From positions 1-36,699 of IMG/VR virus record IMGVR_UViG_3300046009_008280: a DNA stretch of 36,699 nt. One strand, written 5' to 3'. Under the pieces are notes generated by a model, which saw only the letters and a list, made by a program, of their open reading frames with translations, searched no databases and was not told where the DNA came from. Positions 4,002 through 34,606 of the stretch are shown in pieces; within the stretch, counting starts at the first letter, position 1, and the number at the start of each line of letters is the position of its first letter. The position numbers and the translations under genes are program-made. The stretch comes from a virus.

Positions 4002-4391
4002 ATGAGCTTTGATCAAGAATTATTTGGAAATAAAAAGTTTTCTGATTTATTAAAAGATATTTACGATAATCAGAAAAAAAAGGAACGGCAACTCAATTTA
4101 TTGATTGCAGACCTAAAACCACTTATAACTAATATAAGTGATGCTGGTATGTTAGTTCCCTCTATCAAAGACTTAATGGAAGTGTCAGTTAAGAATGATG
4201 AACATTTAGTTAAATTGGCAGCGGTTATACAACGTGCTACAAGTAATAAAACTGAGGAGTCTTCCTCGTTCTTGACTGATGAAGAAAAAGAAGCCTTATT
4301 AAAGGGATTTCAAGAAATTCAAGAAGAACAAGAGGAAAACAAAATTGGCACAAAATCCACAAAAGACGATTCTGAATGGTCAGGAATATGA
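4002..4391 (+). CDS. Small helical protein of unknown function
   Basis: This 129-residue protein is highly charged and predicted to be mostly helical, with a Glu/Gln-rich C-terminal third (about 95-120). It has no membrane segment and no motif I can name. It lies directly between the sigma factor and the gp5-like hub gene, and its last 47 bases overlap that gene in another frame, so the two are likely translated together. In T4 a small late co-activator (gp33) works with gp55, and the size and position would allow a comparable protein, but nothing in the sequence specifically supports that. No ribosome binding site is visible; an ATATTTAT motif ends only four bases before the start codon. Confidence 0.7.
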   Translation: MSFDQELFGNKKFSDLLKDIYDNQKKKERQLNLLIADLKPLITNISDAGMLVPSIKDLMEVSVKNDEHLVKLAAVIQRATSNKTEESSSFLTDEEKEALLKGFQEIQEEQEENKIGTKSTKDDSEWSGI

Positions 4392-6648
4392 GAATATTCC
4401 TGCTGAAGTTGTTACGGTAGATTTTAGCGGTAAAAATAAAGAAAAATTATATACCATCTATTGTAAGTTCTTAGGTGCATTCGGCTCACAGACTCAACAA
4501 AATGTTGTTTCTGCAAGACCTTTAGACGCAAACATAAAAAACATACCAGTAAAAGGTGAAGTCGTTATGTTGGTTAAAGGTCCAACGTCATATAATAGTG
4601 CTCTTCGTTCAGGTCAAGAATATTACTACACAAATCCAGTCTCAATACAAAGTTCAGTACATCACAATGGTATTCCAGGTGTAACTGACTTTTCAGATAA
4701 ACCATCTACTCAAAATTTAAGTGCAAGAAAAAATGCAGAGGATGGTGCTACTAATAGAGTTGAATCACGTTTAGAAACAGGTAAAACGATAGATCCAGGA
4801 TTTCCAGAAAGATTGGATGTTTACCCAATTCAACCTTATCCTGGTGATATTATCATTGAGGGTAGGTGGGGAAATTCAATTAGATTGGGTTCTACTGTTG
4901 ATGAAAGAAGAGAATATCCACAAAGACCACTTTGGAAAAAAGGATTGGGTGATACTGGAAACCCTATATTAATAATTTCAAACGGTACTAATCCAGATAA
5001 AAAACCTTTTAATGAATTTATTCTCGAAGATCCAAACAATGATGATACATCGATTTGGATGACATCTGGACAATCGATAAACTTTACTCCGGCATCTACC
5101 ATAACAAATTCAATTGAAAATAGAGCAGTGAATCTGTTAACACGAAATGTTTTTGCGGGTAATCAAATTTTATTATCATCTGACAGAATAATTTTAAATG
5201 CTAAAAAACAAGAGTTAATTGGATTCAGTAGTGAAGGAATAGGATTTTCTTCTGAAAAAGCGATAGCGTTAGATTCTGGAATAGTTGTAGAAATGGAATC
5301 TAATCGTATAAATTTAGGCATAAACGCAGTATCTCCTGTTTTATTAGGTGACAAAACCATGCAATGGTTAGGTGACTTATGTGATTCACTTGCTAGTTTA
5401 TGTACATCGATAAGTAAACAAACCCACTTAACAGGTACAGGTGAATCACTTCCACCAACAAACGCTCCAGACTTTAATAAAATTAAATCAGATATAAAAT
5501 CATTACGCTCTTCTATAAAATCACTTCCAAGTAATTTAGTATTTGTTTGTGAAAATCCTGGCGGACCAACAAAAGCAGAAATGGATAAAGCTAAGGAAAG
5601 AGCTGCGAGTGGTGGTGGCTATGTTGAAACTAACAAACTAGATGGTGATAAGCCAGATATATTAGCAGGTGTAGAATTGGAGCAACCAGTGGTTAACGTT
5701 GTAACTATACTTACTGAATTAGGTGAAATTGAAAAACAGAAAAAAGTAATATTGGAAGAAATTTCTAAAGCATCTGGAACTTCGTTAACACCTGCTTCAG
5801 AAATGGGTATGAGTAGCGGAGAAGCAGAAGAAGCAGCAGAAAGAGGAGATTTTGCAACTGATCCTAATACACCAACTGATCCTAATACACCAACTGATCC
5901 TAATACACCAACTGATCCTAATACACCAACAACACCACCACCGACTGTTCAAATACCTGGTAGTGTTTCTTCTAATTATCCCAATGGTTTAACATACGAA
6001 CAATTAGGTTTAGAGCCGGCCAAGATGAAAAATATTGGTGGTAGATGGAATTATGATGGTGATGTTGATTTATCAGCAAAAACAAATCCACTTACAAATA
6101 AAAGATTTACAGAAATTCCTATACCGTTTGGTGTAGTAGCTGGTAATTTTAATTGTTCTAATATGGAAATTAAATCATTGAAGAATTCTCCAACTGAACT
6201 CGGTGGAACATTTAATTGTTCTGGAAACCAATTAGAATCCTTACAAGAAGGTCCAAAGAAAGCAAAATCATATCTATGTAAAAACTCAGAATTAAAATCT
6301 TTAACTGGCGGACCAACTGAAGTTACAAGTGAATTTGATTGTAGTGGAAACAGATTGGATACTTTAGTTGGTGGTCCAACTAAAGTTGGTTTTGCGTACC
6401 GCTTGGATGGAAACATAAAGATAACTTCATTGAAAGGTATTTCTGCAAATGGTCCATTGAATCCATTACAAATATTACAATGTGACAATTGTTCATTAAC
6501 AGATGCAACAATATTTGCAGGTGTAAATGAAATAAAAACAAAAACATTCAATGGTGGTTATCAACAAGATGCAGCAGATGGTACAGCAATAAAATTAGAT
6601 GCTACAATAATAAAAGAAATTACAGGTGCAAAAAATATATACGTTTAA
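4345..6648 (+). CDS. gp5-like baseplate hub protein with C-terminal LRR module
   Basis: The start is TTG 4345, chosen because AGAGGA (4331-4336) sits eight bases upstream and the protein then begins in step with the conserved region. Residues about 15-100 have the character of the gp5 OB-fold domain (VKGEVVMLVKGP, then TNPVSIQS). Residues about 150-215 (PIQPYPGDIIIEGRWGNSIR, GNPILIISNG) and 225-340 are rich in short beta strands and resemble the base of a spike. No lysozyme domain is present, in contrast to T4 gp5. A linker of four TDPNTP units follows (505-528). The last 230 residues form a leucine-rich-repeat module (core about 600-690) with units of the form FxCSGNxLxSLxGGP. The role is probably the central hub or spike. 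Two later proteins carry the same C-terminal module. Confidence 0.7.
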   Translation: MAQNPQKTILNGQEYENIPAEVVTVDFSGKNKEKLYTIYCKFLGAFGSQTQQNVVSARPLDANIKNIPVKGEVVMLVKGPTSYNSALRSGQEYYYTNPVSIQSSVHHNGIPGVTDFSDKPSTQNLSARKNAEDGATNRVESRLETGKTIDPGFPERLDVYPIQPYPGDIIIEGRWGNSIRLGSTVDERREYPQRPLWKKGLGDTGNPILIISNGTNPDKKPFNEFILEDPNNDDTSIWMTSGQSINFTPASTITNSIENRAVNLLTRNVFAGNQILLSSDRIILNAKKQELIGFSSEGIGFSSEKAIALDSGIVVEMESNRINLGINAVSPVLLGDKTMQWLGDLCDSLASLCTSISKQTHLTGTGESLPPTNAPDFNKIKSDIKSLRSSIKSLPSNLVFVCENPGGPTKAEMDKAKERAASGGGYVETNKLDGDKPDILAGVELEQPVVNVVTILTELGEIEKQKKVILEEISKASGTSLTPASEMGMSSGEAEEAAERGDFATDPNTPTDPNTPTDPNTPTDPNTPTTPPPTVQIPGSVSSNYPNGLTYEQLGLEPAKMKNIGGRWNYDGDVDLSAKTNPLTNKRFTEIPIPFGVVAGNFNCSNMEIKSLKNSPTELGGTFNCSGNQLESLQEGPKKAKSYLCKNSELKSLTGGPTEVTSEFDCSGNRLDTLVGGPTKVGFAYRLDGNIKITSLKGISANGPLNPLQILQCDNCSLTDATIFAGVNEIKTKTFNGGYQQDAADGTAIKLDATIIKEITGAKNIYV
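5857..5928 (+). repeat. Four perfect 18-bp tandem repeats (TDPNTP linker)
   Basis: ACTGATCCTAATACACCA is repeated four times without a mismatch (5857-5874, 5875-5892, 5893-5910, 5911-5928). It encodes TDPNTP four times as a Pro/Asp/Thr linker between the hub body and the LRR module. Perfect identity points to recent expansion. Any gain or loss of a unit keeps the frame and only changes linker length. Confidence 0.97.
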
Positions 6649-6661
6649 TTGGAGATAAAAT

Positions 6662-8812
6662 TTGGCTGGTTTTTCCACATATACAGTAACGGCAAATGAC
6701 TTTATATTCTTAAAATGTTCAAAGGCAGTAGAGGAGAGTGGATTTACATTACCACAAACTTTTAAGTTTATAGAATGTCCTGATGATCCGCATACAACAG
6801 AAGATGCTGTAAAACATAGAAAACTAGCAAGAGTATATTCGATAGCAAATATATATTGTTCTGGATTTGAATTAGAGTTAAGTGATAAAACAAAAAAATA
6901 CTTAAACGGTTATGAATACATAGGCGATGATAAATGTCCTATTGTAATTTTAGAAAAAGATAAAGCACCTACCGAAGACGATAAACCAGCACCAACTGAA
7001 AACATTAATGCAAAGAAAATGTTTGAATCAACAGTAAATTCTCCATTAACGTATGAATACACATTAGTAAACGCAAGAACGGCTGTATATGACGGTTTTA
7101 CACAAAGTGTAAAGGATTCTATATTAAGTGGAAAAATAAATGTTGACGCACTAAAAGATTCTGCTATAAACGCATTAAAAGATGCTGCACCTGGTGTTTT
7201 AAATTCTTTAGCTTCTAGTCTTGGTGTAGATACAAAAACATTGTCAGCAATAACAGATATTGTTGATTTTGTAGGTAGTGACAACATTATTAATGGTGAC
7301 ATTGATGCTATTAAGAAAAAATTATTAGAACAATTGGAATTAAAAAATTTAGTAGATATTGCATCAAAGCCAGAAATAACAGAAATATTATCTAAAACTT
7401 TAAATATTGGTAAAGATACTCTTACTAATTTATTTGATTCTTCAAAAAACATAAAAACATTGTCTGATATTAAATATATTGAAACATACACTACTACGGA
7501 TGATATATTTAAAGTAAGAATTATTGATGAAAATTTCTTAAATTCAAGACAATCACTTGATTTGATAGTATCCGCATCAGTTTTATTTTATTCAGATGAT
7601 GAGAAAGATAGAATAGAAGGTGAAAGAATAGCTAAGGGACTTTCCAAAGAATTTTTAAACCTACTTAAACCGATAGATACGACTTTTGATGAAAATGTAC
7701 AACCAAGACAAAGAGTTGTTTCTAAGGGTACTTGGTTAACATCATTTAATAAAGTGGATTATCGTATTCAAAAAATTGCTGCAATAGGGTTGGGATTTGG
7801 TATAGAAGAAGAAGGTGTTACAAAACTTCAAACATATATAGATAATTTGAATAAATATCAACAATTGAATGAAAAATCAGATGAATTGAGGGAAGGATTA
7901 AAAGACCACACCGAAATATTAGAAGAAGAAAACAGGTATAATTCAGATGCAGAAAAAGACTATAAAGAAAAACATGGTCTTACAGATAAACAATATGAAG
8001 ATTCTTTAGATATAGTGTATGATAGAAATAATGATAATCAATCGGACGTGGAATGTTATCAGGATACAGATCCAGACCAAGAAACACCAAATCCAGATAA
8101 TCCAGTTGATGTTATGGATCTTAATCCTGCATTGACTGTCAAGGATTCATTAGGAAATGTGATTTCATATAATGGTGACATTATATTAACTGGAAAAAGA
8201 AACGGTTATGATGGTAATTTATTAAAATCTATACCATTTAAAATTAAAAATGTTAATGGTAAATTTATATGTAAGAATATGGGATTAAAGAGTTTAGAAA
8301 ATGCACCAGATGTTGTAGAAGGTGATTTTGATTGTTCTGGTAACGAATTGGTTTCTTTAGATTTTGGACCAAAATCTGTTGGTGGGAATTATTTTGCTAA
8401 TAAAAATAAATTAGAAAACTTAGACGGACTTCCAGGTTCAATAGGACAAAATTTGAATTTATCTGAAAATAGAATAAGTAGTTTAGAAAATTTAGGTTGT
8501 GGAAAATCATCAACAGCATTAGGTTGCCCAACTACTGTGTTTGGTGATGTTAATTTATATGATAATGATTTAACTTCATTGAATAATGCAAATTTGAATA
8601 TTCGTGGTACACTTGATGTTAGTAAAAATGAATTAACCGATGCAACTATTTTTACGGGTATAAGTGAAGGATTGGGTGGTAAAAATGAGAGTTTCACTTC
8701 CGATATACGAGTTAAGAAATTCATTGGTATTAATCAACAACCAGACGGTGTTGAAAAATTAAGTAGCAGTTTAATTGGAAAAACATTACAAATAGACAAT
8801 ATTATAGTTTGA
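6662..8812 (+). CDS. Structural protein with C-terminal LRR module
   Basis: The start is TTG 6662, with GGAG at 6651-6654 seven bases upstream. The first 110 residues resemble no family I know. A helical middle part (about 150-260) has many Leu, Ile and Asp residues, and a mixed region follows (300-400). A charged helical stretch (about 395-455) leads to an acidic Asp/Pro linker (about 468-482, TDPDQETPNPDNP). The rest is a leucine-rich-repeat module (about 534-665) of the same type as in the preceding gene, ending with the same closing pattern (DATIFTGI, then GINQQPDG, then an aliphatic final strand). It shares the leader ATTGGAG with the next gene. The function is unknown; its place in the hub block suggests a tail-tip or spike-associated protein. 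Confidence 0.75.
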   Translation: MAGFSTYTVTANDFIFLKCSKAVEESGFTLPQTFKFIECPDDPHTTEDAVKHRKLARVYSIANIYCSGFELELSDKTKKYLNGYEYIGDDKCPIVILEKDKAPTEDDKPAPTENINAKKMFESTVNSPLTYEYTLVNARTAVYDGFTQSVKDSILSGKINVDALKDSAINALKDAAPGVLNSLASSLGVDTKTLSAITDIVDFVGSDNIINGDIDAIKKKLLEQLELKNLVDIASKPEITEILSKTLNIGKDTLTNLFDSSKNIKTLSDIKYIETYTTTDDIFKVRIIDENFLNSRQSLDLIVSASVLFYSDDEKDRIEGERIAKGLSKEFLNLLKPIDTTFDENVQPRQRVVSKGTWLTSFNKVDYRIQKIAAIGLGFGIEEEGVTKLQTYIDNLNKYQQLNEKSDELREGLKDHTEILEEENRYNSDAEKDYKEKHGLTDKQYEDSLDIVYDRNNDNQSDVECYQDTDPDQETPNPDNPVDVMDLNPALTVKDSLGNVISYNGDIILTGKRNGYDGNLLKSIPFKIKNVNGKFICKNMGLKSLENAPDVVEGDFDCSGNELVSLDFGPKSVGGNYFANKNKLENLDGLPGSIGQNLNLSENRISSLENLGCGKSSTALGCPTTVFGDVNLYDNDLTSLNNANLNIRGTLDVSKNELTDATIFTGISEGLGGKNESFTSDIRVKKFIGINQQPDGVEKLSSSLIGKTLQIDNIIV

Positions 8813-8827
8813 TAATTGGAGTTTTAA

Positions 8828-10117
8828 ATGGCAGAATTGAGTTCTGAAAGTAGTGCGTATAACAGATCTATGGAAAGTGGTTCTTTAACTAATAACACGT
8901 ATTTTTTAGATGACATAGATAAAGAAGAAGTTAACGTTACCGTTGTTGACCAAAATTATGGTTCACAATTATTAGAATTTATTATAGATGACGAAACACA
9001 GCCGGATGAAATTGAAACTGATGGTGATTGGAGTGATGTCAAAGTAGCAGAATATGGAGATTTAGACGCTGATTTACCAGGTGAAACAAATAAAGGATTA
9101 AGCGCAAATGGAAAAAGTCCATGTATACAACCAGGTTCAACAACTCCTGTTAATGCAAACGAAACAGCAAAAGAAACAACAGGAGAAGATAAATCAGGTG
9201 GTGGAACAGATACCGGCGGGGGTGGAGGTAGTGGTGGTAGTGTAATACAAGAAGGTGTAAAGGGCGAGGTAAAGGTAGAAACTACTAATTTTGTACCAAG
9301 TACTAATACTGGAAATGAACCACAACAAAATACAGGTAAAAAGATAGGTGATGTAATAAAACTTAAAGGTAATCTGTGGTATCAGGAAATTGAAATGTTT
9401 GCAGTAGCGTTTGGGAGTGTTTCAAATTTAACACCATTTGTACCAAAAAGCCAGGGTATAGAACGGGTTAAATCTTATACTAATAATGGTGATGGTGTAG
9501 CTAGAATTGAGTTGGGTACATCTGGATATGGTGGAACTCAATATAAGTTTCCAAAACAAGACTGGGGACCAAGATGGATAAATTTTAGTTATTTTGAAGA
9601 ACCTGCTATGGGATGGGCTAGTGGACAACCAACTGGTGCATTTATCATCAATGGAAAAAATTATGGAGCAAAAACCGCAAGTAGAATGTATGTTCCAGTT
9701 TTATATTGGTTAAAGGGAGATTCACATCCAAAACTTGCTAAATCTAAAGAAATATTTGTTGCAAAAAAAGCATCACCTCCACACGCACAAAATCCACAAT
9801 CTCAAGCTAGTTTTATTAACAATATAACCATAGCAGTTCCTGGTGCAGCAACCGTAGTTCAAGGGAACACTGTCAAAGGTAGTGAAGGTGGCGCATTTGT
9901 TGGTAAAACAAAAGATGGTTCTGGTAATATAAAATATTTCGTTGGATTAAAAACAGGTGGTGCAGCAAGTACTATGATAGCAGAAATGAATTCAAAAGGA
10001 AAACAAATAGAATGGATGGTTACAGCAGATCCAGGAGGTTCTTACCAATTTCATTCAGACGGTGAAAAACACCCTGCAAATACTAACCGAGGTATTCCTG
10101 TTGGATTAAAATGGTGA
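8828..10117 (+). CDS. Tail-tip structural protein, unknown family
   Basis: This 429-residue protein starts at ATG 8828 with GGAG at 8818-8821. An acidic N-terminal part (about 1-85) is followed by a low-complexity Thr/Gly linker with a run of five Gly residues (about 125-140). A C-terminal domain of some 280 residues follows, rich in Gly, Trp and beta strands (for example WINFSYFEEPAMGWASGQP and GSYQFHSDGEKHPANTN). The last segment, with ordered His and Asn residues and the ending GIPVGLKW, could be a surface or enzymatic domain, but I do not recognise it. There is no signal peptide. Position between the LRR proteins and the multi-domain lysin suggests a virion component. Confidence 0.7.
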   Translation: MAELSSESSAYNRSMESGSLTNNTYFLDDIDKEEVNVTVVDQNYGSQLLEFIIDDETQPDEIETDGDWSDVKVAEYGDLDADLPGETNKGLSANGKSPCIQPGSTTPVNANETAKETTGEDKSGGGTDTGGGGGSGGSVIQEGVKGEVKVETTNFVPSTNTGNEPQQNTGKKIGDVIKLKGNLWYQEIEMFAVAFGSVSNLTPFVPKSQGIERVKSYTNNGDGVARIELGTSGYGGTQYKFPKQDWGPRWINFSYFEEPAMGWASGQPTGAFIINGKNYGAKTASRMYVPVLYWLKGDSHPKLAKSKEIFVAKKASPPHAQNPQSQASFINNITIAVPGAATVVQGNTVKGSEGGAFVGKTKDGSGNIKYFVGLKTGGAASTMIAEMNSKGKQIEWMVTADPGGSYQFHSDGEKHPANTNRGIPVGLKW

Positions 10118-10194
10118 TTAGTACATAAAAACAATAAAAATTTATATAAACAAAATATATTTATAATATATACATATATTACGGAGAGAAATAA
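10118..10194 (+). promoter_or_regulatory. AT-rich leader of the tail lysin gene
   Basis: The 77-base gap is almost pure A/T. It contains ATATTTAT at 10157-10164 and a GGAG ribosome binding site at 10183-10186, eight bases before ATG 10195. The motif ends 30 bases before the start codon, a distance suitable for a phage promoter. Its role is inferred only from recurrence in other gaps. Confidence 0.4.
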
Positions 10195-13100
10195 ATGGCT
10201 GGTCCATTAGACGCAAGAGTGGAAATAGTTGGAAAATACGGCAGTTTTAGATCTTCTAAAAAAGCACTTAATGCACCATTAATATTTTTAGTTGGTGGTA
10301 TTTACGTAAATGGAAAACCACCAGGTGACTATATGTGGACTGACGGTTATGGTAGTATGACTGATTATAACATATATAATGTAACAACTACAAATAATGG
10401 ACCAGTTGGAACTGCTGGTTCAAAGGTTGTAAACAAAACAGGAATAAGTGGTGGATGGAAAGAATGTGTAGAATACTTAAATACGTATAAAATTACTCCA
10501 TCTAAATTTATATTATTGGGATTTTCTAAGGGATGTGAAGGATTTAATCATGCAATAAGTGCTGCAGGTGGTATTTCAAAGTTTGATTTAGTTTTATTGG
10601 CAGGTGTTTGGAGTAATGCTGGTGGTGGAGCTGTATCAGGTGGAGTTGGTACTGTTGCTAGCGCAATACAGAGTGCTCCACAAAAATGTTATTATTGGAA
10701 TTCAGGACAAGACGGTACGGTCTATGGATTAAATAAAATAACAGATGTCTGTGCACCTGGCCATTATATAGAATGGAAAGGTAGTCATCAGGGACAAATT
10801 AAAAAAACAGCAGATTGGATTAGGGAAAATGTGAAAGTTACATCTACCGGAGAAGCAGCAACACCGAGTAGTGCAGCAACTTCTACGGGAACAGGTGGAA
10901 CACCAAATCCAAAACCGGAAACAGGTGTAACAGAAAAACCACAATCAAAAACAGTAACAACTACAACTTTAGAAACTACTGGACCAGGTTGGCTAAAACC
11001 TGGAAAAATTGTTGCAGACGAAAAAGGTTTACAATTTTTAAAAAGATACGAGGGTATTCGTTATCAAGTTTATGATGATAAAGGCGGTAAAATTATAAGC
11101 AGTTACGAAGAAGCAAGAGGTTACCCAACTATTGGAATTGGTCATTTAATTGGTGGCGGTGAGAGAAATTTTTATTCAAAATATCTCGGTGGACGAGAAA
11201 AGATGACAGAAGCAGAGGTGTTAGCATTAAAGAAAAAAGATATACCAAGATTTGCTAAACCATTGAATGATAGATTGCAACAACCAGTTACACAAAATAT
11301 GTTCAATGCAATGCTTTCTTTGGGATTTAATACGGGTATGAATGGCGGCGCTATAAAAAAAGCCATAGCAGCGGTAAATGCAAAAGACTACGAGGGGGCA
11401 GCAAACGCTATTAAAAACGGTCCAAAAACTTCAAAGGGTGTTGTTATGAAGGGACTTGAAAAAAGAAGGAACGCAGAATATGAGATGTTTAAAGAAGGAA
11501 TGCCAAATTCTCAACCAACAGCTCAAAATACTACTGGACCAACCACAACAACATCTTCCGAAGTTGTAGAATCAAATGGAACTAATGAACAAGTAGCTAC
11601 TGCATCCAATGATTGTAATGATTTACAAAAAGAAGATGCAAAATTTAAAGCGCAAGAATCACCAGAAGGTTCTAAGATAGAAGAAGTAGCAAAAGATCCA
11701 TTACCACCTCCTAAAGATGAAACTCCTGTTAGTTTGGATGGAAAATATAACCATAGATTTTATATTTTACCAACTAAAGAAAATAAACCCCTTACATTAG
11801 CAGAGATGGTTGATAAAAAACAAAAATATTATAAAAGATATTGGGCATGGAGAACAGACGAAAATCCAGGATATGGAATTGTTGCAAACGAAAATAAGTT
11901 AGTATCGGATGATGGAAAACCTCTAATAAGTGCGCTAGTTCCATACTGGCCACCACATAGTGGATCTTTTGATGATATTAAAGAACCAACCGTAGCAGGC
12001 AAATGGTTGAATTTAATAAAAGGGCAAAAAGATATTGAATCTTTTTTAGATGTTCCAATTTTGTTGAATGCTTATGATGTTGGTGTTTTTAATGATAACA
12101 TAGGTTATGTTTTTGAAGCAGGTAATGAATTACACATGACTTTATTGGAAAAAGTTTTTCTTACAAACAAAGGTTCTCAGATTGGAATTGGTAACGCTGT
12201 AAATACAACAATATCAGATAAAAAAAATCAAGATTCAAGTTGGAGAGAATGGCCAAAGTGGTCTGGTATATGGGTTGAACATTGTTTGAAAAAATCTGGC
12301 TATACTTTATACGGTGATATAAGTGTAAACATCAATACTTACCATGAAAAACTTTTAAGTGGGAATAAATTAATAAATTATCCCGGTAATAAAGAATGGA
12401 AGTGGAAAGATTTGAAAGCAGCGGGTATGCAAGACCTTGTTTTTAAACCAAGTAAAATATGGTATGATCCAGCAAACTTAAATTCAGATGAATTATTAAA
12501 AGATACGGGTGATATTGCAATATTCATTGTTGATTATCATATAAAGAAAGATGGTACATTAACTGAAAGAGGGCAAAAATTATTAGATAAAATAATATCG
12601 TTGAATTGGAAATTAGGAGTTATTTCTGCCGTAAAAAGTCACACGGCACAATCTAATCAATTATATGCAGAAGTTTTAGTGTATCTTGATAAAACTGGTA
12701 AGATTGTTACCTTTGGTGGTAATACAACACCAAGGGGAGCAGATTCTATTCCAGGTGGTGGTCCATATCACATTGCTGTAAAAGAAACAAACTTCAAAGA
12801 TTTTGCAATATTAGCAGGTGATAATTGGATAAATGGTGCAGTATTTATTTCTAATGTTAAATCTGGAGGGGATGGACACAGAGTTGGTGGGTTGGATTCT
12901 AAGATATATACAACAAGTATATTCAAAGATTATTATACAAGAATTGATACTGAAAAAGGTAAATTAACAGGAAGAATGTATAATTTTCTTTTACCGTATA
13001 TTGAGCAAAAACCAGCTGCACCTGCACCTGCAAAAATAGAACCATCAGAATCAAATGAAGGACAACATACAAAACTACCAGTTTCTCGTGGAAATGACGG

Positions 13101-13713
13101 TGGGACAAATCAGGATGATGAAACTATATTAGATACTCAAGAAGTTGCTGTACAAAAAGGTATAATAACACCAATACCAGGATTTCCTGGTAAACATTTA
13201 AGAACCAATGCAGTACCAGACTTTGTTGCAATGGTAGCGGCTGCAAAATCAGCAGGGATTAAAATAGGTTTTGGTAGCGGAGATCCAACAAGAACAGTAG
13301 GTAAACAAATTTCTCTTTGGAAGAATCAGAAACCACAACTTAATCAGACACATAGATATATGGATCCAAATAATCCAAAAGAAAAAGATCTCATTAAAAA
13401 ACCTGGACTTGATAGTTATACTACTGATGGCAATAGAAATGATGTAGCACCACCAATGGGATACCATAGTAGTCAACCAAAAAAATATAGAGCGGGATCA
13501 TTTCATCAAAGGGGTAGAGCAATTGATATTGGTAATGCTGCGGGTTCAATTGGTGATACTGGATATGGAACTAATTATAAAAAATATCAACAAGATAGAC
13601 AAACTCCTGTTCAAAAATGGATTAGAGAAAATGGTGGAAAATATAACTGGTTTTCATATTGGCAAGAAGTGTGGCATTTTAATTATAAATATGATAAATC
13701 TATAACACCATAA
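10195..13713 (+). CDS. Multi-enzyme tail lysin: hydrolase, GH24 lysozyme, cysteine peptidase, M15 peptidase
   Basis: Four catalytic-looking domains follow one another in 1172 residues. First, residues about 25-215 show an alpha/beta-hydrolase pattern with nucleophile elbow GFSKG (Ser111), SGQDG (Asp173) and GSHQG (His198). Second, residues about 270-435 are a GH24 lysozyme with Glu286, Asp295 and Thr312 in the order of T4 lysozyme (PTIGIGH conserved) and a longer insert between Asp and Thr. Third, residues about 515-930 contain WVEHCLKK (Cys697), GDIAIF, KSHTAQ (His816) and FGGNTT, typical of NlpC/CHAP-like cysteine peptidases. Fourth, residues about 985-1170 are a VanY-type M15 zinc peptidase with SFHQRGRAIDIG (His1104, Asp1111) and EVWHF (Glu1158, His1161). 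Pro/Thr-rich linkers join the domains. It presumably cuts the cell wall during entry. The second and fourth domains are firm, the others likely. Confidence 0.85.
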   Translation: MAGPLDARVEIVGKYGSFRSSKKALNAPLIFLVGGIYVNGKPPGDYMWTDGYGSMTDYNIYNVTTTNNGPVGTAGSKVVNKTGISGGWKECVEYLNTYKITPSKFILLGFSKGCEGFNHAISAAGGISKFDLVLLAGVWSNAGGGAVSGGVGTVASAIQSAPQKCYYWNSGQDGTVYGLNKITDVCAPGHYIEWKGSHQGQIKKTADWIRENVKVTSTGEAATPSSAATSTGTGGTPNPKPETGVTEKPQSKTVTTTTLETTGPGWLKPGKIVADEKGLQFLKRYEGIRYQVYDDKGGKIISSYEEARGYPTIGIGHLIGGGERNFYSKYLGGREKMTEAEVLALKKKDIPRFAKPLNDRLQQPVTQNMFNAMLSLGFNTGMNGGAIKKAIAAVNAKDYEGAANAIKNGPKTSKGVVMKGLEKRRNAEYEMFKEGMPNSQPTAQNTTGPTTTTSSEVVESNGTNEQVATASNDCNDLQKEDAKFKAQESPEGSKIEEVAKDPLPPPKDETPVSLDGKYNHRFYILPTKENKPLTLAEMVDKKQKYYKRYWAWRTDENPGYGIVANENKLVSDDGKPLISALVPYWPPHSGSFDDIKEPTVAGKWLNLIKGQKDIESFLDVPILLNAYDVGVFNDNIGYVFEAGNELHMTLLEKVFLTNKGSQIGIGNAVNTTISDKKNQDSSWREWPKWSGIWVEHCLKKSGYTLYGDISVNINTYHEKLLSGNKLINYPGNKEWKWKDLKAAGMQDLVFKPSKIWYDPANLNSDELLKDTGDIAIFIVDYHIKKDGTLTERGQKLLDKIISLNWKLGVISAVKSHTAQSNQLYAEVLVYLDKTGKIVTFGGNTTPRGADSIPGGGPYHIAVKETNFKDFAILAGDNWINGAVFISNVKSGGDGHRVGGLDSKIYTTSIFKDYYTRIDTEKGKLTGRMYNFLLPYIEQKPAAPAPAKIEPSESNEGQHTKLPVSRGNDGGTNQDDETILDTQEVAVQKGIITPIPGFPGKHLRTNAVPDFVAMVAAAKSAGIKIGFGSGDPTRTVGKQISLWKNQKPQLNQTHRYMDPNNPKEKDLIKKPGLDSYTTDGNRNDVAPPMGYHSSQPKKYRAGSFHQRGRAIDIGNAAGSIGDTGYGTNYKKYQQDRQTPVQKWIRENGGKYNWFSYWQEVWHFNYKYDKSITP

Positions 13714-14268: not shown

Positions 14269-14763
14269 GTGTCAATATTTAGAAGAAAACGAGAAGTTGT
14301 AAATCCTAATAATCCAGATATAAATTTGGGTAAACCAATTGGTGTTTTAGTTCCGTTTAATGCCGACGTTGGTATATTTAAACAGAGTTTTACAAATACT
14401 CAACAAGTTTTATCTAACTTGAAAAATCTTCTATTGACTTCAAAAGGTGAACGATATATGTTGCCAACTTTTGGTACGGATATTCGTACTATATTGTTTG
14501 ATAACATTTCAAGTGAAGACGATTTTACAAGTAGATTAAATTCTGAAATAGAAACTGCTATTTCAGAATGGATGCCGTTTTTAACAATCGTTCAATTAGA
14601 AACAATAATACCAGCAGTTGATCCACGATTAGATGATCCAGGTCATGCTGTTTCTATAAAATTAGTTGTAAAAATTAGTGGTACAAACATTTATCTACCT
14701 ATACAGATATTTATATCAGATACAGGAAACTTACTAATACAAGAGGCAATCTATAATGGCTGA
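14269..14763 (+). CDS. gp25: Baseplate wedge protein, gp25-like
   Basis: The start is GTG 14269 behind GGGAG (14257-14261); an ATG at 14265 is out of frame and meets a stop after five codons. The 164-residue product shows the gp25 / lysozyme-like W family pattern: NLKNLLLTSKGERYMLPTFG, then IRTILFDNI, then a helix leading to a central Trp (ISEWMPFLTI). T4 gp25 has 132 residues, so about 30 are added, mainly at the N-terminus. gp25 forms the core bundle of the baseplate wedge with gp6 and gp53 and contributes to the sheath initiation site. The eight-base overlap with the gp6-like gene reproduces the T4 gene order 25-6. Confidence 0.92.
   Translation: MSIFRRKREVVNPNNPDINLGKPIGVLVPFNADVGIFKQSFTNTQQVLSNLKNLLLTSKGERYMLPTFGTDIRTILFDNISSEDDFTSRLNSEIETAISEWMPFLTIVQLETIIPAVDPRLDDPGHAVSIKLVVKISGTNIYLPIQIFISDTGNLLIQEAIYNG
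14707..14714 (+). promoter_or_regulatory. ATATTTAT motif inside gp25, ahead of gp6
   Basis: The motif lies within the 3' end of the gp25-like gene, 41 bases before the gp6 start, and is extended to TATTTATA. The spacing to the next gene is similar to that of the intergenic copies at 13781 and 10157. It could serve as an internal late promoter, or be chance in an AT-rich coding region. Confidence 0.3.
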
Positions 14764-16657
14764 TTTAGTTAAAAAAGACATTCGTTATCTTTCAAGAGAT
14801 TTCTCTTCTTTGAAACAAAACCTTATTGATTTTACGAAAAATTATTTTCCAAATACATATCAAGATTTTAATGAAGCATCACCTGGTATGATGTTCTTAG
14901 AAATGGCTGCATATGTTGGTGATGTTTTGTCATATTATACAGATGTTACTCTTCAAGAAACAATGCTTTTACACGCAACTGAACGTGTAAACATATTAAA
15001 TACGGCACAGTCTCTTGGATATATGCCTAAAAATAGAATTGCTGCTAATGTAAAACTTGATGTTTTTCAAATAGTTCCTGCTAAAACTATAGTTTCTACT
15101 AGTGGAAGTCAAGTTGTACCAGATTATTCATATGGATTTGCAATAGAACCTGGTATGGTAGTTGGTTCGTCAACTAACACTAATGTTCAATTTAGAACAG
15201 TTGATTTTATTGATTTTAAATTTAGTAGTAATATTGATCCAACGGAAGTAACACCGTTTGAAATAGATGTGAATGGTGAAGTTTTATTTTGGTTATTAAA
15301 AAAATCAGTAAAAGCAGTTTCTGGTAAAGTAGAGTATCAAGACTATGAATTTGACGATCCAAAACCATATGATAGAGTTGTATTAAATAATCCAAATCTC
15401 ATAGAAGTTTTATATGGTATTGATTCGGATAACAATACTTGGTATAATGTACCGTACTTAGCAGCAGATACAATATTTGAGCCAGTTATAAATATTGCAA
15501 GAAATGATACAGAGTTATCCGCATATAGAGATGAAACACCATATCTTCTTAAATTAAAGAAAGTTGCAAGAAGATTCACTTTAAGAACAGTTGATCAAGG
15601 AATTTATGAAATACAATTTGGTGCAGGAGTTGCTGACTTAGATGATGAGGAACTAATACCTAATCCAGAATTAATTGGAAATTCTTTAACTGGCATAGAA
15701 AGTTCTGTTTCTTTAGATATAGACCCATCTAACTTTTTATATACTAAAACATACGGACTTGCTCCAAGTAAAACTACAATTAGAGTTTATTACACGACTG
15801 GTACAGGTATTCAAGATAATGTTGCAAGTGATACTCTTACTAGAATTTTAACTAGAAGTATACTGTTGGATGAATCTGGACTTGATGGTGTTTTATACTC
15901 TCAGATAGTTGCAAGTTTAGCGGTTACAAATCCAAAGCCCGCCATAGGTGGTAAAGCAGGTGATGAAATAAACGAAATACGAAATAATGCTTTAGCAAAT
16001 TTTGCTTCACAAAACAGAGCGGTAACCAAAGAAGATTATATTATTAGGGCTTACACGTTACCTTCTAAGTACGGTTCTATTGCAAAAGCGTATATTACAA
16101 AAGATACACAGTTAACGGTTGAATCCATATATAATACAGAAAGAATTCAGAATAATTTAGCCTTAAATTTTTATGTATTAGGATATGACGCTGATAATAA
16201 ATTAACTCTTATTAATGATGCAACTAAAGAAAACTTAAAAACTTATTTGAATTATCATAGAATATTAACAGACGCTATTAACATTCGTGATGCGTATGTA
16301 ATTAATATTGGTATTGAATTTGATATAATAACGTTTCCAGATCAAAATAGTAATCAAGTTATATTAAGATGTATAAACCGATTAAAACAATATTTTGATG
16401 TAAATAAATGGCAAATAAATCAACCTATTATAGTTAGTAATATATTCACCGAATTGGATAGAATAGAGGGTGTACAAACCGTTGTTGATGTTAAGTTAAC
16501 AAATAAATACGATCAAACATTAGGTTATTCACCAAATGCTTATAATTTACAAGAAGCAACAAGAAATGGAATTGTTTTCCCTTCTTTAGATCCTTCTATT
16601 TTTGAAATAAAATACCCAGATAATGATATTATTGGTAGAGTGAGGGCATTCGGATGA
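14756..16657 (+). CDS. gp6: Baseplate wedge protein, gp6-like
   Basis: This 633-residue protein (T4 gp6: 660) carries the typical N-terminus of the gp6/gpJ family: YLSRDFSSLKQNLIDFTKN, then SPGMMFLEMAAYVGDVLSYY, then ERVNILNTAQSLGYMP. The middle has the characteristic NRAVTKEDY motif (around residues 420-427), shared with the gpJ-type baseplate_J domain. The C-terminal part contains the helix-rich wedge dimerisation region. gp6 dimers form the iris-like ring that links the six wedges and triggers sheath contraction. AGAGG (14742-14746) is nine bases before ATG. It overlaps gp25 by eight bases and the next gene by an ATGA junction, so the three are strongly coupled. Confidence 0.93.
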   Translation: MADLVKKDIRYLSRDFSSLKQNLIDFTKNYFPNTYQDFNEASPGMMFLEMAAYVGDVLSYYTDVTLQETMLLHATERVNILNTAQSLGYMPKNRIAANVKLDVFQIVPAKTIVSTSGSQVVPDYSYGFAIEPGMVVGSSTNTNVQFRTVDFIDFKFSSNIDPTEVTPFEIDVNGEVLFWLLKKSVKAVSGKVEYQDYEFDDPKPYDRVVLNNPNLIEVLYGIDSDNNTWYNVPYLAADTIFEPVINIARNDTELSAYRDETPYLLKLKKVARRFTLRTVDQGIYEIQFGAGVADLDDEELIPNPELIGNSLTGIESSVSLDIDPSNFLYTKTYGLAPSKTTIRVYYTTGTGIQDNVASDTLTRILTRSILLDESGLDGVLYSQIVASLAVTNPKPAIGGKAGDEINEIRNNALANFASQNRAVTKEDYIIRAYTLPSKYGSIAKAYITKDTQLTVESIYNTERIQNNLALNFYVLGYDADNKLTLINDATKENLKTYLNYHRILTDAINIRDAYVINIGIEFDIITFPDQNSNQVILRCINRLKQYFDVNKWQINQPIIVSNIFTELDRIEGVQTVVDVKLTNKYDQTLGYSPNAYNLQEATRNGIVFPSLDPSIFEIKYPDNDIIGRVRAFG

Positions 16658-17828: not shown

Positions 17829-19421
17829 ATGTTAAATCGAGATGCAGTAAGCGGTGGAATACTAAGTTATACCGATGATAGTGGAATTCAAAACGAGGGG
17901 GTTCTTGATGTAGCAGTATTAGATGGAAGATTTTTGCGTAGAGATTTTTCTCGAATAATAGATACTAATTTTAAGTCATTGAAAGAAGCTACTTCCGCGG
18001 AAGCAAATATAAATAAGAAAATAAGAAGTATTCAGAATAGAGCATTGATACCGGGTGAGTTTGCTAAAATAATTGGACAAGAACCATCAACAACATTAAG
18101 TGATTCAGAAAAAGCAGAATTAGCTAAAAAAGAATTTTTAACTAATATATCTAATTTAATTAGTACCGATGGCAATACCGTTACTGGCATGCAATATCAA
18201 ATGAATCAAATGCAAGAACAATTAGCAACTAAGGATTCGATTATAAGTCAACAAATACAAACAATTTCAAAATTTGATGATGTTTTATCATCGGTTTCTG
18301 CTGAAAGAGCACTTGCTGTTTCAAAAGCAGAAAGATTACGTGAAGCAAATGTTTCATTACAAAGACAAGCAGATGAAAAATTAGCAAGGATACAAAACGA
18401 AGTGGTTGCTCAAAGAAAACAAGCAGAAAAATCAGCAACAGAGTTAAAAACTGCGTTGGTAGATAATATAAGTGCAACAAATACAAAACAAGATGTTGAT
18501 ATTGAACAACTTAAATTACAAAATTTACAATTACAACAAAATCTTGTAGACACAGCTAATGCAATATCTGATACAAAACAATCTATAATAGATTTACAAA
18601 ATTCAGTAATTGATGCTGCTGCAGCCGATGGTGGTGCAAATGATACTCCACCACCACCACCACCACCACCAGACGGGCCAACTACGGATCCTAATATATT
18701 AACAGCTCTTGGATTACAAGATACTGACGTCTCGTATGTTGACACTCCAAGCGGTAGAGTTATGAATGTGTTCAGAAGTGTAAAAGTTTCATCACAAGCG
18801 GTAAAAAATGGGGCACTTATGGTAAAGTTCGGTGTTGTTAATGGAATATTTGATTGTTCTGGTGTTGGGTTAACAACTTTAGCAGGCGCACCGTCTAAGT
18901 GTTCTGAATTTAATTGTTCTAATAATTTGTTAACCTCATTACAAGGTTCACCACAAACTGTTTACGATGGAACAGTTGATTGTTCTAAAAATAAATTAAA
19001 AGATTTATTAGGTGGTCCACAAACTGGTGCTTTTACTAAATTAGACGGTGATGTTGCTAATGCACAGCGTAATACGTTTTATAGATATGATTGTTCGGAC
19101 AATTTATTGAACACTCTAAAGGGGTATCCTCAGACTTCTTCGGATTTAGGTGGAATTACCGATATTACGGTAATAATGGCGGATTTTAATTGTTCCAATA
19201 ATCAGTTTCTTTTTGTAATCGATGGTGTAACTGCCACACCAGGAAAACAACCTATGAATAGATTTAATGCAAGTAATTGTCTTCTTACTGATGAAACGTG
19301 GACACGTTCTGACGTACGTTGGGCAACCTTGGAATTTAATGGTGCAAATCAACAAAATGGAAAAAAATTAGACGCTAATAAAGTAAAACAATACACAAAA
19401 GCAGTAACCGTTATAGTATAA
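17829..19421 (+). CDS. Coiled-coil baseplate protein with C-terminal LRR module
   Basis: A short N-terminal head (about 1-60, including GVLDVAVLDGRFLRRDFSR) is followed by a long Gln/Ala/Lys-rich helical region (about 110-260) with clear heptads, probably a trimeric or dimeric rod. A run of eight Pro encoded by eight CCA codons (residues 274-281) ends the rod. A leucine-rich-repeat module follows (about 335-490), with units such as DCSGxxLTTLAGAP and NCSNNLLTSLQGSP, and a closing segment (FNGANQQNGKKLD) like those of the two earlier LRR proteins. The head may plug into the wedge while the rod displays the LRR at the periphery. The family of the N-terminal part is not recognised. Confidence 0.75.
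   Translation: MLNRDAVSGGILSYTDDSGIQNEGVLDVAVLDGRFLRRDFSRIIDTNFKSLKEATSAEANINKKIRSIQNRALIPGEFAKIIGQEPSTTLSDSEKAELAKKEFLTNISNLISTDGNTVTGMQYQMNQMQEQLATKDSIISQQIQTISKFDDVLSSVSAERALAVSKAERLREANVSLQRQADEKLARIQNEVVAQRKQAEKSATELKTALVDNISATNTKQDVDIEQLKLQNLQLQQNLVDTANAISDTKQSIIDLQNSVIDAAAADGGANDTPPPPPPPPDGPTTDPNILTALGLQDTDVSYVDTPSGRVMNVFRSVKVSSQAVKNGALMVKFGVVNGIFDCSGVGLTTLAGAPSKCSEFNCSNNLLTSLQGSPQTVYDGTVDCSKNKLKDLLGGPQTGAFTKLDGDVANAQRNTFYRYDCSDNLLNTLKGYPQTSSDLGGITDITVIMADFNCSNNQFLFVIDGVTATPGKQPMNRFNASNCLLTDETWTRSDVRWATLEFNGANQQNGKKLDANKVKQYTKAVTVIV
18648..18671 (+). repeat. Eight CCA triplets encoding polyproline linker
   Basis: Eight CCA codons in succession encode Pro8 between the coiled-coil rod and the LRR module. 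A homogeneous triplet run is prone to slippage, but length changes stay in frame and would only alter a stiff linker. Confidence 0.97.
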
Positions 19422-19435
19422 CATAGGATATTTTA

Positions 19436-22400
19436 ATGTCAAATTTTAATTATACAAATATAGACTCAATACTTTCAGCAACGAATCCCATTCGTGGTTC
19501 AAGAACACGCTTATCTTCGGTTAGAAGAAAATTAGTTGTTCCTGTATTGAATGATACGGAAGAACAATATTTTGGTAAGGAATCATCACTTGAACTACAC
19601 GTATTTATGAAAAATACAGTTTATGTTGATAATTCTTCTTTGTATGACTTACCATTTAAAATAGAATCAAGAACTGAGAACATTGTTATAGGTGAAGAAA
19701 CTCAAGTTACTACAAGAAAATATGTTTTAATAGATGTGCATGACCATATTCAAAATTTATTACAATTACCAGTAGATAACTACAAAATTGTTTATAACTT
19801 TTTTAGAAATCTTATCGGTGGATCTACTGATGAAAATGGAAGATTATTTATAGCAGATATTTCACAGGATAGAAAAGAATTAAAATTAACACTTAAATAT
19901 CCAAATAATACATCAGCAAAAACTTCATTAACACAATTTGTATTAAACTATTTATCATCAACAACTTATTTACCACCGATTATATTAAATTTTGGTGAAA
20001 ATTTAATTGTAGATGTTATTAATATCACATCTGATGGTGATGATACATATTTCTATGTTAAACTATATGACACACTTCCACCTGAAATTGATTTATATTA
20101 CGAATGTTGGTTAGGGAGTCAAATATTAAAACCTTGGATAGATAATATAACTGTTCTTAGACAAGAATCAATGGAAATGATTCCTTACATTAAGGGACCA
20201 AATTTTGAAGTAGATTACGATTATTGGGTTAATAATGAAACTGATTATAAATCTTGGAGTGATTTATTATCAACAAATGTTCAAACTTCGCAAGAAATAT
20301 TAAACCGTTATATAAATAACACAGGTTCGTCTGTAAAATTAAATGTGGATTTTAGAGACTTTTCAAACTTTATATTCTATTCTTCAGCAGAAGACAGGAT
20401 TGATAATTTCTTTTATAAAATTGGTTTGATTGAAACATATAATACACAGTTATCTTTATTGAATACATATACGGGTTCTGTTAGTGCGAACATTATTAAT
20501 GTTAAACATTTACGAGATAAAATTACCCAAGGATTTGATGATTTTGAAAAATGGATGTATTATGAAACAACCTCAAGTAATTTTTATACTAGTCAGTCCG
20601 CTGCAATAATTACACCTTTTCCAAAATATGAAGTTAATCCAACTTCAAGTGATTACCATATTTTAACTAAAGACGGTAAATATAAATTATATTCTGTTTT
20701 GTCTGATACTGCTCTCGATTGGCACGATGATGTATTGGATGAGGGACTTGCATACGATTTAAAAAATTATAATTCACTCAATAAAGCTATACCAGAATAC
20801 ATATTGGATGATGGTCAAAGTAATCAATTTAAAACATTTGTAAATATGATTGGTCAGCACTTTGACATTTTGTATTTATACACCGATCATATTTTAAAGA
20901 AAAACACAAGAAAAGAAAATCCAAAAGATGGACTTTCACAAGATTTAGTTTATGAAGTAACTAAAAACTTAGGATGGACACTTTCAAGTGGAACTCAAAC
21001 AAAAGACCTTTGGGAATACGCACTTGGATTAAGTGGAAGTGGTGAACCTATTTGGACTGGTAAAACTACAATAAATAAATATCTTTCAAAGCCAGAAGAA
21101 GACAGAACAAAGGAAGTTTGGAGAAGAATATTAAATACTCTTCCGTATGTATATAAAAGTAAAGGTACTTCACGAAGTATAAAGGCATTACTTTCCGCAT
21201 ATGGAATTCCTTCAACTATTCTTTCAATTCGTGAATATGGTGGTCCTGATAATGCAGACTTTGGTAAAATTCCAAGAGCAGAGTGGGATAAACAAACATA
21301 TTATCTTAACTTTTTAGGAAGTAAGCAGCAACCAAAAACAAATCAATATGTACAAGTTCCTTGGGAAAAAGTAAACAACGCTAATAATCAATGGCAATAT
21401 CCTGATACTTTAACTTTCCGTTGGAAAATGCATGATGCGAAATACTATCCGTACCATGATAATAAAGTTCAAACTATTTTACAAAAACAATCTGGTAGTA
21501 GATTAGATTGGTATGTAACAATAGCAAACGATGGAACTGATTATGACAAAGGAAGTTTAACTTTTCACATGAAAGGCGAAGACGTTACTACAACTGATGG
21601 TTGGTCAAAAGTATCAGCAGGATTCAACCATAGTTCTGCAATTAAAACAAATGGTGAACTTTGGGCATGGGGATTAAATACGAGTGGACAACTAGGTGAT
21701 AACTCTACTACAACTACATCAAGTCCAGTTCAAATTGGGTCTTCATCTGATTGGTATTATGTTACCACTGGTGATTATTATACATTAGCAATTAAAACAG
21801 ATGGTACACTTTGGGGTTGGGGAGCACAGACTTATGGCGAACTTGGAAATAATTCTACTACAACTACATCAAGTCCAATTCAAATTGGTACTTTATCTAA
21901 TTGGTCAAAAGTAGAAGGTGGAAATAACCATGTATTCGCTATTAAAACTGACGGTACACTTTGGAGTTGGGGCTTTAATGGAAATGGTGAATTGGGCGAT
22001 GGTACAACTGTTAATAAATCATCTCCAGTTCAAATAGGAACTTTATCAACTTGGTCATCTATATCTGCTGGTTCAAACCATGGATTTGCGATAAAAAATG
22101 ATAATACGCTATGGGGTTGGGGTAGAGGGACTTTTGGTGAATTGGGAGATAATACAACTGTTAATAAATCTTCACCCGTACAAATTGGTTCAGGTTATTC
22201 AGTAGTTTCTGCTGGTGGATATTATACATTAGCAGTTAAAACCGATGGGACACTTTGGAGTTGGGGGTATAATGATAACTATCAACTTGGTGATGGTACT
22301 ACAACCACACAATCTTCACCTGTACAAATTGGTACAGGATTTGCAACAGTTTTTGCTTCAATGGATGCCGGTGGATTATCTTATGGTACATCATTGGGTA

Positions 22401-32890: not shown

Positions 32891-34606
32891 GTGGCATTTC
32901 AATTTGGAAATAATATAAGTTTTGCTTGGAAACAATTAAAAGCAGGTGATTATACTGTAAGACATTTTCAAGCAAATAAAAAATGGAAATTTAATACAAT
33001 TTCTACTGACGTTGATTATTATGAAAATCATGGAATACAAGTTTATAGGGCTTTATATCCAGAAAACAATAAATACTTTGGTAATGTATTAAATCTATCG
33101 TCTGATATGTATCGTAACTCATATACTTCACAAAGTATTGATCCAAAACAATTGTGGTATTCATTGGATCATAATTATTATACAGTTTACTCTGATTATA
33201 GAATGTATGATTATACTGGCGAAGAAAATTCAAATAATTATTTGTGGGAAACTAGTTCTCTTTTTGTGTTACCCATGACAAATTTTGGAGAAGGTATACA
33301 GAAAGGTTCTTTTTCTATAAATAATTACAGTACAAATCCTTCGTATAGTTATACCTTAATAGATGATAAGTTTGGTAACTTAATTGATAATTCATTTGAT
33401 ACTACAAAATTTGTTGATTATTCAAGTTGTTTAATTGATATTGGATTTAATGAGAAATATAGAGAATATAAATACAAAAATAATAAATCTATTTATATAC
33501 TAGATTCATCGCACCATAACAATATAATTCGTATAAACAATAATAAAAAAATAACCTATCATAATGGTATTCCAACAACCGATACTGCCGAACCAACTGG
33601 TGTTTCTGCTGCAATTCATGGAACATATTTAAGTGTGGATAGTTATCAGACATTTAACTTTAATCGATCCAACAATTTTGCATTTAGTTTTTGGTTAAAC
33701 GTTCCCGCAAGTCAATCAATAGAAACATATGATCATAATTACTTATTTAACAAAAATAGAATAAAAATGTTACGTATAGGTGATGATGTTATTGAAACTG
33801 GTTCTTATTCCAACAGATTTCCATTTGATATTTATCTGACAAATAGAACAGCAACCAACCCGTACTCTATCGTTTTCAGACAAAGTTCTGATGTTGAGAG
33901 TATGCAAGTAACTTCGAGTATGTTAGCAACTGGAAGTTGGAATCATGTTGTTTGTCAAAAAACTGGAAGTAACTATGATATTTATATAAATGGTACATTG
34001 AATTCCACCGCTAATAAAATAATGACTAAAACAGTTAATAATGACCATAAATTTTATATAGCAGGTGATGGTACTAATGATAAGGTACTTTCTGGTTCGT
34101 TGGATGAAGTTAAAATTTATAGTAAAGGATTAACATCTGATGAAATTGCACATCTTTATGATAATAGTTTGGTAAATGGTTATGCGTATCAAACCGCAAG
34201 AATTGGTAATATATTTTATAAACAAGGTATGGTAGTTGTTTCTGACCCAAGACCAAAATATAAAAATTCTATTTTAGGTTCAAGTGGTTCTTATGATTAT
34301 AGTGATTTAACGTATGGGTTTGATGGTGAATATAAAAGTATAACTACTTTTTTTGAACATGAAATTATTTGTAAAATTCGTAAAAGTGAATTCAATTTTA
34401 CTCAAAATCCTTCTTTATTTACAGATATAAATCTTGGTCCACAGTTAGCAGATACGTATGTATCGCATAGAAATTTTAATCCGTATATAACAACGATTGG
34501 GTTGTATAATGAAGATAGAGATTTAATAGCAATTGCAAAATTGGCTAACCCACTAATAAAGCGTGATGATGTGGATATGAATATTATTATACGATTTGAT
34601 ATGTAA
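32891..34606 (+). CDS. Distal tail paralogue 5 with LamG-like domain
   Basis: The start is GTG 32891. The 571 residues begin with a diverged family N-terminus (about 1-230). A LamG/concanavalin-like lectin domain follows at about 241-428: NFAFSFWLNVP, then SWNHVVCQKTGSNYDIYING, then GSLDEVKIYSKGLTSDEIAH. The family then resumes with FYKQGMVVVSDPRPKYK and closes with YITTIGLYNEDRDLIAIAKL. The LamG domain thus appears inserted in the family fold. LamG domains bind glycans or proteins, which suits a host receptor function. The stop codon overlaps the start of the endonuclease gene by one base (TAATG). Confidence 0.8.
   Translation: MAFQFGNNISFAWKQLKAGDYTVRHFQANKKWKFNTISTDVDYYENHGIQVYRALYPENNKYFGNVLNLSSDMYRNSYTSQSIDPKQLWYSLDHNYYTVYSDYRMYDYTGEENSNNYLWETSSLFVLPMTNFGEGIQKGSFSINNYSTNPSYSYTLIDDKFGNLIDNSFDTTKFVDYSSCLIDIGFNEKYREYKYKNNKSIYILDSSHHNNIIRINNNKKITYHNGIPTTDTAEPTGVSAAIHGTYLSVDSYQTFNFNRSNNFAFSFWLNVPASQSIETYDHNYLFNKNRIKMLRIGDDVIETGSYSNRFPFDIYLTNRTATNPYSIVFRQSSDVESMQVTSSMLATGSWNHVVCQKTGSNYDIYINGTLNSTANKIMTKTVNNDHKFYIAGDGTNDKVLSGSLDEVKIYSKGLTSDEIAHLYDNSLVNGYAYQTARIGNIFYKQGMVVVSDPRPKYKNSILGSSGSYDYSDLTYGFDGEYKSITTFFEHEIICKIRKSEFNFTQNPSLFTDINLGPQLADTYVSHRNFNPYITTIGLYNEDRDLIAIAKLANPLIKRDDVDMNIIIRFDM

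Follow-up and report, generated by a model that had tools for sequence, protein, structure and literature searches.

The window, by which we mean the whole stretch of DNA analysed, is the virus record IMGVR_UViG_3300046009_008280 with a length of 36.7 kb (36,699 nt) and a GC content of 31.5%. Its plus strand carries an open and complete reading frame with an ATG start (10195..13713, +) that encodes a protein of 1172 amino acids, just as an earlier sequence-only reading of this DNA had described it. Full-length homologues with intact frames were found in independent IMG/VR contigs, and these metagenomic contigs, whose members are labelled L0xx, make up our sample of the lysin family. Upstream of the ORF lies the gene of a gp5-like central spike (4345..6648, +), recognised by resemblance and synteny, which is 56% identical to a gene of Microcystis phage Mel-JY01 and 27% identical to one of Flavobacterium phage immuto. 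Downstream, we located genes for a gp25-like baseplate wedge protein (14269..14763, +; PF04965, E=6.7e-9) and a gp6-like baseplate wedge protein (14756..16657, +; PHROG 219, E=1e-20; 69% identity to Mel-JY01). The relatives by baseplate genes are one Microcystis-labelled phage and one Flavobacterium phage. Because gp5-like, gp25-like, and gp6-like genes surround the ORF, the region is assigned, by gene content, to the baseplate cluster of a T4-like phage with a contractile tail. The gene order in the relatives is spike, two genes, lysin, a small gene, gp25, and gp6, and the lysin gene lies between the spike and the gp25/gp6 genes in nearly all relatives compared, L071 being the exception in the stretch compared. 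This constant synteny supports the label "tail protein" for the lysin, and the position within a tail/baseplate module that serves as the criterion for a virion-associated lysin was found by the same synteny.

Several other genes of the window were noted in passing. The segment 2188-2868 encodes, as judged by eye, a ClpP-like protease that is kept beside the baseplate cluster in the relatives and in Mel-JY01 (45%). A structural gene of the tail cluster (19436-24541) codes for a 1701-aa protein with seven RCC1 repeats (beta-propeller, PF00415, 2.5e-60); the RCC1 beta-propeller is a fold typical of eukaryotes. The tail-cluster proteins of 4345-6648, 6662-8812, and 17829-19421 share similar C-terminal leucine-rich-like repeats ("FNCSGN.L.SL..GP"), and two of the three match phrog_21719, one weakly. 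Finally, 32891-34606 is a probable fibre/adhesin gene with a Laminin G/concanavalin-like domain (PF13385, 5.4e-16).

The 1172-aa protein is composed of four domains, D1 to D4, separated by three linkers. Two of these are low-complexity segments identified by composition, namely linker 1 (10849..10992, +; residues 219-266), which consists to 92% of P/T/S/G/Q/N/E/K/D/A, and linker 2 (11506..11718, +; residues 438-508). Linker 3 spans 13012..13149 (+; residues 940-985). The sequence-only reading had proposed four distinct chemistries in this chain, and the residues it named were correct in identity and numbering.

D1 (10195..10848, +; residues 1-218) matched no family model. An AlphaFold model based on nine aligned homologues reached a pLDDT of 85 and a pTM of 0.88, and showed the strand and helix order of an alpha/beta hydrolase. 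Ser111 (codon 10525-10527, +), part of a GxSxG-like nucleophile motif (GFSKG), directly follows the strand 105-110, while Asp173 (10711-10713, +) comes after the strand 165-169 and His198 (10786-10788, +) after 191-193. The model thus displays the canonical strand order of the fold, with a nucleophile elbow after the central strand and the acid and the histidine after later strands. A Foldseek search returned 230 PDB chains at E<=0.001, headed by acyl-protein thioesterase 1, EstA, and cutinases, with a probability of 1.0. Ser111 is invariant across 15 homologues, and His198 is near-invariant, being aligned slightly out of register in the two remotest ones; an acidic residue follows the respective strand in most homologues, its position being shifted. 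The best viral match was a 204-aa uncharacterised Caudovirales protein (E 1.8e-10), and no match to D1 was obtained among 50,697 named phage records. Fold and triad order bear out the sequence-only reading for this segment, and D1 is, on the basis of the model, a probable serine alpha/beta hydrolase. The accompanying idea of a putative deacylation of lipid, capsule, or wall polymers by D1 is reasonable.

The family assignment of D2 (10993..11505, +; residues 267-437) as a GH24 phage lysozyme is secure at the sequence level. Residues 283-428 match PF00959 over the full profile (positions 1-125 of 125) with E=7e-21 and 75.3 bits against a cut-off of 22.3; further matches were to a PHROG endolysin family (1.2e-35) and to PDB lysozymes (3.7e-12). 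The catalytic residues Glu286, Asp294/295, and Thr312 are in register with those of the PDB lysozymes, in line with the Glu286/Asp295/Thr312 site proposed before. For D4 (13150..13710, +; residues 986-1172), the proposed VanY/M15-type zinc peptidase was likewise recovered. When the segment was scanned alone, PF02557 matched residues 1001-1164 with E=4.2e-7 and 30.2 bits against a cut-off of 25; in the whole-protein scan, the score was 24.8 bits, just under that cut-off. The zinc site His-x6-Asp ... Glu-x2-His is present (His1104, Asp1111, Glu1158, His1161), and His1104, Asp1111, and His1161 are invariant in the seven aligned relatives.

D3 (11719..13011, +; residues 509-939) is of a different kind. 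None of the family models matched it above the respective cut-off. Weak and inconsistent Pfam matches (HAM1_N, C2orf69, IMUP, and similar) were discarded, and the one consistent weak match to a wall enzyme was TIGR02594, seen in four of the 15 members with a best E of 0.011; the window protein scored 14 bits, below the TIGR02594 cut-off of 70.55 bits. No relative of D3 was detected among the 50,697 named phage records or in pattern scans of GTDB genomes. We compared D3 by profile-profile alignment with real TIGR02594 proteins from bacterial plasmids, which had been fetched with a family-like consensus as bait. The D3 segment PKWSGIWVEHCLKKSGY was matched to the catalytic helix ("PWCGAFVxxxLxxxG") and LDKTGKIVTFGGNT to the "GGN" strand that follows it, the two segments being collinear. 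The two alignments scored 33.8 and 24.2, compared with 13.8 ± 2.8 and 11.6 ± 2.0 for column-shuffled profiles, and none of 60 shuffles reached either value. Furthermore, the second segment aligned with the CHAP domains encoded by the upstream gene of the relatives (30.2 vs 12.8 ± 3.0 shuffled), which placed Tyr824 on the catalytic His; for the first, N-terminal segment, no alignment to this CHAP set was found.

Around the Cys helix and the His/GGN strands, a core of D3 (approximately residues 680-850) is hence collinear with TIGR02594 and CHAP (PF05257), two domain types that belong to the papain superfamily (NlpC/P60-like). D3 differs from these families in its substituted catalytic positions, in several hundred extra residues around the core, and in scores below the family cut-offs. 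The position of the catalytic Cys is taken by Ser690 in the window protein (codon 12262..12264, +) and by Ser in 11 and Asp in four of the 15 family rows, and the position of the catalytic His by Tyr824 (12664..12666, +), with Tyr in 10 rows, Arg in three, Phe in one, and His in one. The catalytic Cys and His of CHAP/TIGR02594 are therefore not found in D3. We consider D3 to be probably a CHAP-like domain with substituted catalytic positions, that is, a degenerate one. The profile evidence consists of short alignments and makes a good though incomplete case, because the first segment did not align to the upstream CHAP set.

The sequence-only reading had placed an NlpC/CHAP-like cysteine peptidase with Cys697 and His816 as active site in this segment. 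The papain-like neighbourhood was recovered, but the active site was not, as the aligned positions are Ser690 and Tyr824. Structure prediction supported the hydrolase fold of segment one and gave no fold support for segment three, for which AlphaFold on a 10-sequence alignment yielded a pLDDT of 39 and no usable model. If D3 were nevertheless an active peptidase or amidase, through Cys697/His816 or through a Ser690-based papain-like site, the protein would contain four active enzymes. Such an active D3 would fit the conservation of Cys697 and His816, each present in 14 of the 15 aligned rows, and the replacement of Cys by a conserved Ser has precedent in DUF2272 and other papain-like families, some of them suspected to be active (PMC10318531). 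Ser690 alone is therefore no proof of inactivity. However, in the "WCxxFVxxCL" helix Cys697 corresponds to the second Cys, which is not the catalytic one, with Ser690 seven residues earlier; four relatives have Asp at position 690, and position 824 is mostly Tyr. The DUF2272-type proteins, moreover, retain their two other active-site residues (PMC10318531), whereas in 14 of the 15 D3 rows the place of the His is occupied by Tyr, Arg, or Phe. The loss of the catalytic His makes inactivity of D3 likely, and we regard four active enzymes as unlikely. Of the four chemistries proposed earlier, three are supported, while the fourth domain is probably a pseudo-enzyme, its catalytic positions being substituted in nearly the whole family.

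Comparison of the relatives revealed that the domains differ strongly in conservation. Across close relatives, D3 is 84-98% identical, D1 about 40%, and D4 37-52%, and D2 changes family. The window protein shares the architecture D1-GH24-D3-VanY with L002 and L004. A GH19 lysozyme/chitinase-type domain replaces D2 in L005, L006, L007, and L008, giving D1-GH19-D3-VanY in L005-L007. L017, L024, and L036 are built as D1-D3-M15-like, with M15 recognised by motif only and the linker alone at the position of D2; L042 and L049 carry an extra N-terminus in front of a D1-D3-M15-like arrangement. The order D1-D3-lysozyme-NAGPA occurs in L022 and, similarly, in L046/L047. These proteins are devoid of the VanY/M15 module, and L022 has, at the place of D4, a "baseplate hub and tail lysozyme" (PHROG 27932, 1e-22) and a phosphodiester glycosidase (NAGPA, 1.4e-6), L046 showing a weaker NAGPA match there. 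The C-terminal NAGPA domain of the L022 lysin (7092-10892) is an unusual enzyme for a phage tail. L039 and L041 lack D1 and are organised as GH19-D3-unknown; their approximately 280 C-terminal residues past D3 (genes 7209-10427 and 4067-7285, respectively) have no family match and may represent a new enzyme module. In the distant L070 and L071, the motifs indicate D1-M15-like without D3. D3 is thus present in every architecture seen except that of L070/L071, and since these two carry D1, it is not a universal anchor.

At fourfold-degenerate third bases, D1 and D4 are saturated, while D3 is broadly similar to the baseplate genes next to it, a pattern that fits vertical inheritance of D3 with modules recombining around it. 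The conservation of D3 might, alternatively, reflect recent recombination only, in which case D3 would be no chassis. The third-base identity to L005 is indeed higher for D3 (90%) than for the gp6 gene (76%), so that some local exchange is possible. Against L004, L007, and L017, by contrast, D3 (67%, 69%, and 54%) behaves like the gp6 gene (72%, 59%, and 49%), and D3 is retained in all architectures but L070/L071, which makes recent recombination an improbable explanation. Within the GH24 group, the window protein has its D1 in common with L002 (95%) and its D2 with L004 (92%), while the D4 domains of L002 and L004 agree with each other (81%); on these identities, modules recombine among the three members. 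From the sequence comparisons, D3 seems to be a conserved chassis around which enzyme modules are swapped between related phages.

The gene directly upstream of the lysin (8828..10117, +; 429 aa) has an N-terminal segment common to the relatives and a variable C-terminus. The latter is a CHAP domain in L004, L007, and L039 (best 3.8e-8), and probably in L022/L046, so that a CHAP domain with intact Cys/His is encoded directly upstream of the lysin gene in several relatives. It is an M15 domain in L005, with a match just below the cut-off in L006, and a GH19 domain in L017. In the window, no family was identified for the C-terminal domain, which ends in "DPGGSYQFHSDG...GIPVGLKW"; its resemblance to NAGPA is non-significant, hhalign against the NAGPA domains of L022/L046 giving 17.7 with a shuffled maximum of 17.2. 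Judged by these domain matches, the relatives have in this upstream gene a second slot in which lytic modules are swapped.

Mel-JY01 (PP395634) carries a stand-alone GH19 gene, annotated as "putative chitinase", at the same place between the spike and the gp25/gp6 genes. Its product is 25-27% identical to the GH19 modules of L005 and L007 (E 6e-16 and 2e-17), and, unlike the window lysin, it is a single enzyme of 343 aa without D1, D3, and M15. Modules of the GH24, GH19, and M15 types are typical of endolysins, and the PHROG label of the GH24 and GH19 parts is "endolysin"; the protein could, on these grounds, be the lysis endolysin of the phage that lies inside the baseplate cluster by chance. 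We consider this quite unlikely in view of the near-invariant position between spike and wedge genes, the multi-domain build of 1000-1400 aa, and a better endolysin candidate in Mel-JY01, namely a GH19 protein of 200 aa with a gene of its own at 93 kb. The latter protein (L074 1195-1797; PP395634, ~93 kb) is encoded away from the tail genes and is likely a true endolysin.

The reading that we favour, and consider reasonably probable as a whole, is that of a baseplate virion-associated lysin with three enzymes and a degenerate CHAP-like chassis, whose modules are exchanged between phages. The analysis establishes the domain assignments, the synteny, the exchange of modules, and the substitutions at the positions aligned to catalytic residues, and we infer the virion location of the protein, its enzyme activities and their order of action, and the docking through D3. 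The lysin would sit on the baseplate beside the gp5-like spike and open the host envelope locally during entry. The serine hydrolase D1 would strip an outer layer of ester-linked groups, D2 would cut the glycan chains of peptidoglycan, and D4 its stem peptides. D3, with the catalytic Cys and His lost, would most likely be the structural chassis through which the protein docks to the baseplate and which keeps the enzymes spaced, with flexible Pro/Thr/Ser/Gly-rich linkers between the domains. By exchanging enzyme modules, both around D3 and in the gene next upstream, the phage lineage may adapt. As to the origin of this arrangement, we tentatively suggest, as a possibility somewhat short of probable, that an ancestral baseplate CHAP lysin lost catalysis and became a docking chassis for interchangeable envelope-cutting enzymes, three in the present case, with a second slot in the adjacent gene.

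In bacteriophage T4, the lysozyme is inserted within the spike protein gp5 itself. The window lysin resembles this tail lysozyme in that a lysozyme would work at the baseplate beside the spike, but it is a separate multi-enzyme gene and not part of the spike. According to a review from 2017, most virion-associated lysins are single-domain proteins, and those with a second lytic domain number only five, each from a phage of Gram-positive bacteria: HydH5 of phiIPLA88, gp49 and gp44 of phi11, gp61 of phiMR11, and CwlP of SP-beta (PMC5380687). As in these two-domain proteins, more than one envelope-degrading domain resides in one tail or baseplate protein, and phi11 gp44, with an endopeptidase and an SGNH/esterase-type hydrolase in one chain, has a similarly mixed build. 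The window lysin differs from the two-domain lysins in its three probable enzymes plus a degenerate CHAP-like domain, in other domain types, and in module exchange within the same protein. That domains are shuffled in endolysins and tail proteins has been well documented (PMC10684548). New are the count of probable enzymes per chain, the degenerate CHAP-like chassis, the D1 hydrolase in such a role, and the paired slot. In the open-access full-text literature, we found no earlier description of tail lysins that evolve on a pseudo-enzyme platform.

Descriptions of tail lysins usually give a single lytic domain and rarely two. In the family presented here, one chain holds three probable enzymes, a serine hydrolase, a muramidase, and a zinc peptidase, which are exchanged around a domain that stays fixed. 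D3 and D1, which are without detectable relatives in named phages, are both open to expression and structure tests. The exchanged modules of the family form a natural series of domain combinations for the question of what it takes a phage to get across a particular cell envelope.
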